A stretch of 64,000 nucleotides of DNA. Origin: Variovorax atrisoli 110B (GTDB taxonomy: Bacteria > Pseudomonadota > Gammaproteobacteria > Burkholderiales > Burkholderiaceae_C). This document shows, piece by piece, positions 13,071-46,788 of this stretch. Position 1 is the stretch's first letter. Every line of letters starts with the position of its first letter. The position numbers and the translations under genes are program-made. The notes beneath the pieces were generated by a model, which saw only the letters and a list, made by a program, of their open reading frames with translations, was not told the origin of the DNA and did no database searches. The stretch is taken from assembly GCF_000382045.1 (NCBI RefSeq), contig NZ_KB907450.1:248001-312000 (forward strand), read 5' to 3'.

Positions 13071-13270
13071 AGAACAGTGCCGCGAGCCAGGCAGCAGGAA
13101 GGAAAAAGGGGGAAGGGGAGGGATGAACCCCCTATTGACCAGTTTCTTTTCAAGAGGCTGCATTGTTTCAATCCTGTGAACGCCGCGGTTCATTTTGCGA
13201 GCGTTTTTTGATGCCGATCAGGATCAAACTTCTCCTCACCAACCAACCGTTTGCCCTGAAGGAGATTGAA

Positions 13271-13621
13271 ATGAATGCCTCGAAGATCCTCGCCGCTGCC
13301 GCCCTCTCGCTCCTGGCTGCTGCCGGCGCCCAAGCAGAAACCTATGACGGCGTGCACGTCGTGAACTCCTCGGTGAGCCGCGCCGAAGTCGCTCCGCAAG
13401 CCGTTGCCGCCGCTCGCGTCGGCAACGAATACAGCGAAGCCTCCTCCGCTGGCGCCCAGGCCTTCACGTCGACCGCCAACCGCGCCACTGTCCAGGCCGA
13501 AGCCGTCGCCAAGGCGCACGACCCGCTCGCCAGCCTCGACCGCCGCGCGTTCTACCGCGACGAAGTGCCGGCTGCGTACAAGAAGCCCAGCGTGTCGTTC
13601 ACGCGCCAAGCTGGCCTGTAA
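13271..13621 (+). CDS. Small secreted alanine-rich protein of unknown function
   Basis: A 116-residue protein starting at ATG 13271 after a GGAGA ribosome site. A signal peptide (MNASKILAAAALSLLAAAGAQA) covers residues 1-22. The mature part contains two loosely repeated segments, SRAEVAPQAVAAAR and NRATVQAEAVAKAH. The (N/D)RAxVQAEA signature recurs in the secreted protein encoded at 15629. The message ends at a strong terminator (13667-13692). No function is recognised; an abundant periplasmic or secreted small protein is the likeliest class. Confidence 0.75.
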   Translation: MNASKILAAAALSLLAAAGAQAETYDGVHVVNSSVSRAEVAPQAVAAARVGNEYSEASSAGAQAFTSTANRATVQAEAVAKAHDPLASLDRRAFYRDEVPAAYKKPSVSFTRQAGL

Positions 13622-15088: not shown

Positions 15089-15439
15089 TCAGGTGTGGGA
15101 GAGGATGTTGACCAGCTTGCCGAACGGATCGCGCACGTAGAAGCGCCGCACGCCCCAGGGCTCGTCGACCGGGCCGTATTCGATGTCGAAGCCCGAGGCC
15201 TTCATGCGTTCGAAGGCTTCGTCCACATCATCGACCTCGACGGACAGATCGGGCACCGCGGTGCCTGAGCCGCCTTCGGATGCGAAGCTCAGCTGCACCG
15301 TCATGCCGGCCTGCGAGCCGTAGGTCTGGATCCAGCCGTGGTCCATGAGCAGGTCGAGGCCGAGGATGTCCTTGTAGAACATGGCGGCGCGCGCGGGATC
15401 GGGGGTGGCGAAGTTGGCGACCAGGCGTTTGACTTTCAT
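15089..15439 (-). CDS. VOC/glyoxalase-fold protein
   Basis: A 116-residue single-module vicinal oxygen chelate protein. The opening VKRLVANFATPDPARAAMFYKDILGL and the ending YVRDPFGKLVNIL are the usual beta-alpha-beta-beta-beta landmarks. Many such proteins dimerise and bind a metal or a drug; the glyoxalase I residue set is not clearly complete, so a substrate cannot be named. It is convergent with pyrB. Confidence 0.8.
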   Translation of the reverse strand: MKVKRLVANFATPDPARAAMFYKDILGLDLLMDHGWIQTYGSQAGMTVQLSFASEGGSGTAVPDLSVEVDDVDEAFERMKASGFDIEYGPVDEPWGVRRFYVRDPFGKLVNILSHT

Positions 15440-15526
15440 GAGACCGTTGTCTTCCTGATGGTGAAGGTTTCCGAGAGCGAAGCGGCCGAATATAGAGCTT
15501 GGCTGCGCCGCACATGCTCACGCGTG

Positions 15527-15592
15527 CCTAAGCGAACCCTCACCCCAACCTAAGCAGCCCCTCAGCGGCCGATAAGTACCGCGTCCTAGAGT
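15527..15592 (+). promoter_or_regulatory. Four 11-bp phased repeats and putative -10 upstream of a secreted protein gene
   Basis: Units CCTAAGCGAAC (15527), CCTCACCCCAA (15538), CCTAAGCAGCC (15549) and CCTCAGCGGCC (15560) follow each other at exactly 11 bp. TAGAGT at 15587-15592 is a possible -10 about 16 bp after the last unit, with no good -35. Direct repeats at 11-bp pitch ending where a -35 would be are the hallmark of OmpR/PhoB-class activators. The CCTAAG-N5-CCTcA pattern is closest to PmrA/QseB boxes (CTTAAG-N5-CTTAAG). Confidence 0.55.
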
Positions 15593-15628
15593 GAATCCGT
15601 CGTCATCACTCAACTCAAGGAGACAGCC

Positions 15629-15988
15629 ATGAGAGTTCGAACCATTGCCCTGTGCATCGCCGCCGCGCCCGCGCTGGTGCTGGCATCCCTCGCGCATGCG
15701 GGCGGGCGTGCCGATCCGGACTACCCGCAGCTCTCGCATTCCACGCAGTCGCGCGATGCGGTGGCCGACGAGGCCGCGCGCGCGAACAACGGCGTCCATG
15801 CGACCGAGGTTGCCGAGTCGCAGCCGGCACCGAGCGTGTCCGGCGCCGATCGCGCCCAGGTGCAGGCCGAGGCGATTCGCGCGAACAACGGGATCCACCC
15901 GACCGAGGTGATGGAGTCGCAGGTGGCGCCGCCCGTGGCATCGGCGAACCCGTCGGGTTCGCCGGTCGAGCACGCGATGGGCGAGTAG
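15629..15988 (+). CDS. Small secreted protein with two 33-residue repeats
   Basis: A 119-residue protein with an N-terminal signal peptide (cleavage probably after SLAHA, residue 24). The mature chain holds two tandem imperfect 33-residue repeats (42-74 and 75-107), each with RANNG(V/I)H, TEV and ESQ at the same spacing. The second repeat begins DRAQVQAEA, related to the NRATVQAEA motif in the protein at 13271. A good AAGGAG site precedes the ATG. No known domain is recognised with confidence. Expression is probably controlled through the phased repeats just upstream. Confidence 0.75.
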   Translation: MRVRTIALCIAAAPALVLASLAHAGGRADPDYPQLSHSTQSRDAVADEAARANNGVHATEVAESQPAPSVSGADRAQVQAEAIRANNGIHPTEVMESQVAPPVASANPSGSPVEHAMGE

Positions 15989-46121: not shown

Positions 46122-46788
46122 CGGCGATGCTCTCCAGCATGTAGCCCAGGCCGCGCACGGTGACGATGCGCACGTCGCTGTCCGCGAGCTTGCGGCGCAG
46201 CCGGTGCAGCACCACCTCGATGGCGTCGGGGCCGGCGGTGCTGTCGTTGGTGAACACCTTGGCGAAGAGCTGCGACTTGCCCACCGGGGAGCCGCTGCGC
46301 AGCAGCAGGGCGGTGAGCGCGGCCTGCTCCCGCGGCGTGAGCGACAGCAGCGTGCCGCGCAGCGTGAAGGCGCGGCTCTGGCTGTCGTAGGAGAGAGAGG
46401 CGCATTGCAGGCGCGGGTGCTGCTTGCCGCGGCTGCGCCGCACCAGCGCCGAGAGCCGCGCCTCGAGCTCCTCCAGCTCGAAGGGCTTGGTGAGGAAGTC
46501 GTCGGCGCCGAGGTTCAGGCCGCGCACCCGGTCCTGCAGCGCGCCCTGCGCGGTGAGGATCAGCACCGGCGTGCGGTCGTCGGCGGCCCGCATGTCGGCC
46601 AGCACGCTCAGGCCATGCTTGTCTGGCAGGCGCAGGTCGAGAACGATGGCGTCGTATTCGGTGCCGGCCATGAAGGCCTCGGCGGTGCGCGCGTCGGGCG
46701 CGTGGTCGGGCACGAAGCCGCTCTGCGTGAGCGCGCGGACCAGCCACGAGGCCATGTCCAGTTCGTCTTCCACCAGGAGGATGCGCAT
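46072..46788 (-). CDS. tctD: OmpR-family response regulator, TctD-like
   Basis: A 238-residue regulator with a receiver domain (acidic residues in LLVEDELD, phosphoacceptor Asp51 in IVLDLRLPD, conserved Lys in LTKPFEL). The winged-helix DNA-binding domain of the OmpR class (LTPREQAALTALLLRSGSPV, IEVVLHRLRRKL, VRGLGYML) follows. It belongs to the QseB/PmrA/TctD-like subgroup by overall look. First gene of the tctDE-tctBA run. Confidence 0.9.
   Translation of the reverse strand: MRILLVEDELDMASWLVRALTQSGFVPDHAPDARTAEAFMAGTEYDAIVLDLRLPDKHGLSVLADMRAADDRTPVLILTAQGALQDRVRGLNLGADDFLTKPFELEELEARLSALVRRSRGKQHPRLQCASLSYDSQSRAFTLRGTLLSLTPREQAALTALLLRSGSPVGKSQLFAKVFTNDSTAGPDAIEVVLHRLRRKLADSDVRIVTVRGLGYMLESIADGTSAPVRSEFPGAHD

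Follow-up and report, generated by a model that had tools for sequence, protein, structure and literature searches.

PhoB acts at stacked pho boxes, in which 7-bp direct repeats recur every 11 bp, and makes class II contact with RNA polymerase. The published PmrA box, CTTAAT-ATTAT-CCTAAGC, is presented in the accessible part of one study as two head-to-tail half-sites with an 11-bp step (PMC3973317). The AgrRS system of Cupriavidus metallidurans also belongs to the OmpR family, and the available sections of a report on it describe type II activation at promoters whose -35 element is poor, with the system's own operon and the gene for PrsQ2, a small CopQ-like periplasmic protein, among the targets (PMC7380067). 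In the same sections, the AgrR box is given as an inverted repeat of ATTACA (6-4-6), to which some sites add direct repeats, and AgrR is stated not to have bound prsQ1 (PMC7380067).

We analyzed an array of direct repeats in a 64-kb window of Variovorax atrisoli 110B, where "the window" denotes the whole stretch of 64,000 nucleotides. The original prediction had described four CCT[AC]A[GC]C words at exact 11-bp steps that end at the -35 position, followed by TAGAGT as the -10 element. These four words are present at 15527, 15538, 15549 and 15560. However, the register also takes in two further half-sites (GCTCACG at 15516, GATAAGT at 15571), and the last of them lies 9 bp before TAGAGT, which means that the array runs through the -35 position rather than stopping there. 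The whole array comprises six 11-bp-phased half-sites (15516-15577) built from two alternating words, TCTCA(C/G) and TAAG, an alternation that becomes evident only through the orthologues described below. The six half-sites form three 22-bp units, and the match fraction is 0.56 at a lag of 22 bp compared to 0.375 at 11 bp and 0.185-0.345 at other lags.

Sequence and register place the distal 22-bp dimer site at 15516-15537 on the plus strand (GCTCACG at 15516, CCTAAGC at 15527), followed on the same strand by the middle site at 15538-15559 (CCTCACC at 15538, CCTAAGC at 15549) and the proximal site at 15560-15577 (CCTCAGC at 15560, GATAAGT at 15571). The predicted -10 element TAGAGT occupies 15587-15592 (plus strand) and is trailed by a conserved GAA, and no sigma-70-like hexamer pair or -35 element was found in 15440-15640. 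A Shine-Dalgarno-like AAGGAG at 15617-15622 precedes the candidate controlled gene at 15629-15988, both on the plus strand. Direct half-sites every 10-11 bp on one helix face characterize OmpR/PhoB-family operators, and the array shows them with a period of 11/22 bp; it also has the class II layout, with a proximal site in the -35 region at a fixed distance from the -10 and no -35 of its own found. A short open reading frame on the minus strand (15089-15439), whose product may resemble VOC/glyoxalase-like proteins, reads away from the array. The array lies within the intergenic stretch common to both genes, and therefore an effect on this reading frame is possible as well.

Among 100 Variovorax genomes, the window gene has 22 strong matches, window included. 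Upstream DNA is present for 21 of these (L012 ends at a contig edge and was excluded), and the weak matches L031 and L032 were left out of the orthologue set. Twenty promoters were aligned by script, without gaps, using the final half-site and the -10 as anchors; the twenty-first, L010, was judged by eye and is excluded from all counts of 20. Half-sites were called when at least three of four core letters matched. The spacing of half-sites is fixed and their number is even in all 21 promoters, so the spacing expected by the original prediction is conserved upstream of the orthologues. Eight of the 20 promoters carry four half-sites, eight carry six and four carry eight, although L020 was scored with six, two of them poor, and four would be equally likely. 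The mean number of half-sites is 4.95 in register, but falls to 0.05-0.9 when the register is shifted by 1-10 bp. TCAC and TAAGC of the middle dimer site are invariant in 20/20 promoters, as are TCA and TAAG of the proximal site. The -10 reads TAGAGT in 19/20 promoters and TAAAGT in the remaining one, and GAA stands behind it in all 20. Because spacing is fixed and half-site number is even, the dimer site appears to be the unit that is gained or lost, and the natural unit of the array is, as far as sequence comparison can tell, a 22-bp pair of half-sites. Thus, where two tandem dimers had been proposed, there would be three in the window and two to four in its relatives. A second collection of 15 relatives of the window gene, all from Variovorax, contains the element in 14 loci, and the fifteenth is cut off upstream; these loci overlap the 100-genome set and do not form an independent sample.

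The conservation also bears on whether the array could be a run of chance repeats or a piece of an RNA or coding element, which we regard as exceedingly improbable. Neither strand of the window contains a second array of four such words. A first-order Markov model of the window generated 4748 half-sites in 20 Mb of sequence, but neither the 11-bp pair nor the row of four was ever seen; if the words are independent, the expectation for 64 kb, both strands counted, is about 4e-10 rows of four. Moreover, the array is conserved across orthologous promoters whereas the DNA immediately upstream is not, and Rfam returned no match in 15300-15800 even at an E value of 1.

We then considered which regulator would bind the array. 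The original prediction had pointed to a TctD-like regulator encoded in the window itself (about 46135-46350, locus L105). No such half-site pair occurs within 200 bp upstream of this candidate, and the promoter profile gives its locus a poor score, whereas a response regulator on contig C15 carries the element at its own promoter; the TctD-like protein is therefore not supported. Searching the 110B genome with simple words was of little help. The original word with two mismatches gave 157 matches compared to 171 for the reversed control and was useless, and a 26-bp word that allowed three mismatches found 43 places compared to 108 in the control. A 59-column model built from the 20 promoters was too strict and returned the window site only (two places). 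Four other matches in the 110B genome (C1:1620297, C1:25057, C3:154898 and C1:1437104) were set aside as isolated. A relaxed CCTAAG pair performed no better (8 matches against 21 in the control), yet it contained the decisive match at C15:44102, which precedes an OmpR-family response regulator gene (G000:C15:44203-44856) located beside a gene for a QseC-like kinase.

A profile built from the window-gene promoters was used to scan the 38 winged-helix matches of the 110B genome as 39 loci, with the C15 locus counted twice. The top site adjoins the C15 regulator and scores 2.5, compared to -18.6 for the next site and 72-88 for the window-gene promoters from which the profile was built. This top site stands before a gene for a 112-aa secreted protein behind the C15 kinase, and its promoter (L109 4370-4424) reads in register as CCTCACTCGCG CCTAACTCTTC GCTCACATCCA ACTCAGT-N9-TAGAGT. 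The autopromoter of the C15 regulator (L109 2103-2135) reads CCTAAGC-N4-CCTAAGT-N9-TACTCT. In both, the half-sites keep the step of 11 bp and the distance of 9 bp to the -10 that are seen at the window promoter, and the genome thus carries the arrangement at further promoters, as the original prediction had anticipated. In the clade of the window, the autopromoter has two TAAG halves and not the TCTCA/TAAG pair, whereas more distant relatives have TCTCAx or CTCAx followed by CTAAGA before the regulator, alternating like the window gene.

The C15 regulator has a match in 89 of the 100 Variovorax genomes (E at most 1e-70), although the sole copy seen in G011, G028 and G099 is only 63-77% identical. 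Eight genomes have an extra copy, 76-77% identical, in addition to the main one (among them G047:C1:6508408, G015:C23:592619 and G096:C8:449500). We read 41 regulator loci, comprising our own and 40 picked by hand from the matches, closest first with some distant ones added. Loose patterns detected a pair of half-sites with a correctly spaced -10 within 160 bp before the regulator in 36 of the 41 loci; the autopromoter was missed in five, in one of which (L152) it lies just past the 160 bp searched. An element after the kinase, 1.9-3.3 kb from the regulator start, was also found in 36 loci, 34 of them with four half-sites, and was missed in five.

To survey the genus we matched the composite pattern CTCAY-N7-TMAGW-N9-TANNNT exactly in the 100 Variovorax genomes. 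The pattern had been chosen with three kinds of promoter already in view, those of the window gene, of the regulator and of the gene that follows the kinase; the third type of site described below, which turned up in 22 genomes, played no part in that choice. There are 128 matches in 73/100 genomes, compared to four for the reversed pattern and three for a 12-bp step, and 117 of the 128 fall on four kinds of promoter. Fifty-six stand at the start of the gene after the kinase, 25 are regulator autopromoters, 14 belong to window-gene orthologues and 22 form the third type, grouped by its ending TAGATT; the other 11 lie elsewhere. The pattern occurs in 73 of the 89 genomes with a regulator match and in none of the 11 without one (Fisher p 9e-8, a statistic that ignores shared ancestry). 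In the 110B genome, one mismatch yields three matches, all on these targets, against three in the control, and this genome alone is therefore not convincing.

Where a site of the third type shares a contig with the regulator (19 cases), the distance is 7-28 kb and the site is downstream; in the 110B genome the site is L183 1501-1532 (G000:C15:60980-61011). The same kind of protein starts behind four of the five that were read, namely in 110B, G089 (551 aa), G025 (544 aa) and, judged by its first codons, G044; in G060 it is not in the open reading frame list of the DNA behind the site. In L216, the site at 1171-1202 precedes a gene at 1268-2923 for a protein of 551 aa, which has no Pfam or NCBIfam match and whose residues 102-292 are similar to solved KrKA chains (9yfx, 1.2e-11). 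Four of the 11 matches elsewhere represent one more sequence type, and the two that were read stand directly before the same kind of gene. Element-like sites of this type are L217 1218-1249, L218 1071-1102 and L219 1200-1231; they lie a few bases ahead of an isochorismatase-like gene, identified by Pfam in L217 and similar by eye in L218. A fifth genome, G016, also has a site resembling this type. The seven remaining matches are of other kinds, and those in G072, G027, G028 and G024 resemble the after-kinase type.

A family-wide scan found a match in 20/299 genomes, with no enrichment outside the genus (18 places compared to about 20 in the control). Two of the outside matches are autopromoters of regulators that are 82-84% identical (G184 and G355), and three stand behind kinases that are 53-58% identical, all within one genus (g72). 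In three genomes from two further genera of the family (L225, L226 and L233, near 1500), the composite pattern lies just 5' of a TTAGCACTC-N9-GAGTGCTAA inverted repeat, which we take to be CIRCE-like.

The C15 regulator contains a receiver domain (85.1 bits, cut-off 30.2) and a Trans_reg_C domain (67.8 bits, cut-off 26.2) according to Pfam. Among NCBIfam models its best match is PmrA at 227.5 of 330 bits, followed by QseB at 210.2 of 345, with TctD at 178.4 of 337, all three below their equivalog cut-offs; with the PhoB profile it reaches 149.1 of 296.2 bits. The best match of the kinase, QseC, reaches 215.8 of 475 bits and is likewise below the equivalog cut-off. The nearest solved structure to the regulator is PmrA/BasR (3.1e-47), with 90/217 positions identical. 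Compared to the DNA-contacting residues of PmrA listed in the part of the study drawn on here, five of eight are kept (N188, H195, R171, R198 and R210) and three are changed (K153R, T187S and H193L), and three of the five residues named there as reading bases differ (PMC3973317). The protein is thus placed in the PmrA/QseB neighborhood of the OmpR family, though it is not demonstrably PmrA or QseB. The BiofilmReg operon of Burkholderia was considered and rejected as a different operon, reported in the accessible text as absent from Comamonadaceae (PMC5192318). Among the papers listed from one open-access library, we found no description of the C15 system.

Five other response regulators of the genome (L093, L105, L091, L078 and L084) score higher against PmrA than the C15 regulator, and therefore class alone cannot pick the regulator; because these proteins are the more PmrA-like by score, the C15 assignment rests on promoters and synteny, not on class. 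The array might instead be bound by another protein of this class, such as L093, a 51%-identical paralogue at C1:1149974, or the TctD-like L105, both of which outscore the C15 regulator against PmrA. The recognition-helix stretch of L093 is also similar (SSNAVEVYVHGLRKKLGA compared to TSNAIDVLIHGMRRKLGA). We nevertheless consider this unlikely, because neither gene has a half-site pair in its upstream 200 bp (five of the seven regulators tried were readable), the best profile site of the 39 loci adjoins the C15 system and the pattern matches across the genus cluster there. The regulator of the array is thus most likely the C15 system and not the TctD-like protein of the window, and the operator of PmrA/QseB type foreseen by the original prediction is supported, at a promoter with no recognizable -35.

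Our reading, to which we assign a probability of about 0.83, is that the array serves as operator for a sigma-70-type promoter that depends on an activator, and that dimers of the C15 regulator bind it. The dimers would bind head to tail on 22-bp sites, each with a TCTCA(C/G) half upstream and a TAAG half 11 bp later, and phosphorylated dimers would load successively along 62 bp. The proximal dimer would cover the -35 region and contact polymerase in class II fashion; since the last half-site ends 9 bp before TAGAGT, polymerase could be held at a promoter that has no -35. Binding by the C15 regulator would activate transcription, and more dimers may give a stronger or more switch-like output; the order of stacking and the signal are likewise presumed. 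Further targets of the regulator would be its own operon, the secreted-protein gene behind the kinase and the additional gene nearby. Alternatively, with the -35 region covered and 9 bp left between array and -10, a bound protein could occlude polymerase and thereby repress the gene. We judge repression to be quite improbable, given that no -35-like hexamer was found that could serve unaided polymerase and that the spacing from proximal half-site to -10 is invariant in 20/20 promoters. In addition, a fair -10 with a poor -35 is described, in the sections available, for the type II activator AgrR of the OmpR family (PMC7380067).

The candidate target in the window encodes a 119-aa predicted secreted protein with a signal-peptide-like start and, by eye, two internal repeats of about 33 aa each, consistent with the repeat-bearing secreted product originally proposed. 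Its similarity to DUF4148 is weak, at 19.6 bits compared to the Pfam gathering cut-off of 27. PrsQ proteins are, we assume, DUF4148-like, a term that the AgrRS report does not use. The 112-aa protein after the kinase has two repeats of about 34 residues, again by eye. The repeat likeness between the two secreted proteins is visible by eye only, and sequence tools do not support a common family (BLASTP E value 0.18, hhalign probability 1%). A second small secreted-protein gene of the window (13268-13618) encodes a protein of the TYDGVHV type, with 15.9 of 27 bits for DUF4148, and no 11-bp-phased array was seen in its upstream stretch. In the relative L176, a protein that looks to be of the TYDGVHV type sits behind the kinase, there with the element.

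From sequence alone, the C15 two-component system thus gains a concrete candidate operator, a -10 spacing and a short genus-wide list of predicted targets, and the two-, three- and four-dimer forms of one promoter in sister species provide a test bed for stacking versus output. Judging from gene location, our guess is that the secreted proteins act in the envelope or feed back on the kinase. A broader and decidedly tentative possibility is an envelope circuit found throughout Variovorax. In this circuit, a system of PmrA/QseB type would drive secreted proteins with repeats, which in turn would feed back on its kinase, and evolution would tune the strength of the window-gene promoter by adding or deleting whole 22-bp dimer sites (two, three or four) and never single half-sites. 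If true, these promoters would form a natural dosage series for the cooperative stacking of response regulators.

PhoB half-sites differ from those of the window. The C15 system resembles QseB/QseC in that its kinase best matches QseC, its regulator has QseB as second-best match and a small secreted-protein gene adjoins the operon, which presumably recalls ygiW-qseBC. Unlike QseB/QseC, its accessory protein has no NCBIfam match, and both C15 proteins fall below the equivalog cut-offs. The array is also like the box of PmrA/BasR from Klebsiella and Salmonella, as presented in the part of the study used here, with head-to-tail hexamers at an 11-bp step and unequal halves, and the second half of the pbgP box, CCTAAG(C), equals the window half-site letter for letter (PMC3973317). 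In contrast to that box, the upstream half is TCTCA(C/G) and not CTTAAT, window-type promoters stack two to four boxes with no gap between them and the targets include small secreted proteins. The AgrR box was rejected as the identity of the array because it is an inverted repeat in the sections available (PMC7380067). Nevertheless, the promoter logic described there for AgrR is similar and extends to a gene encoding a small protein of the periplasm (PMC7380067).
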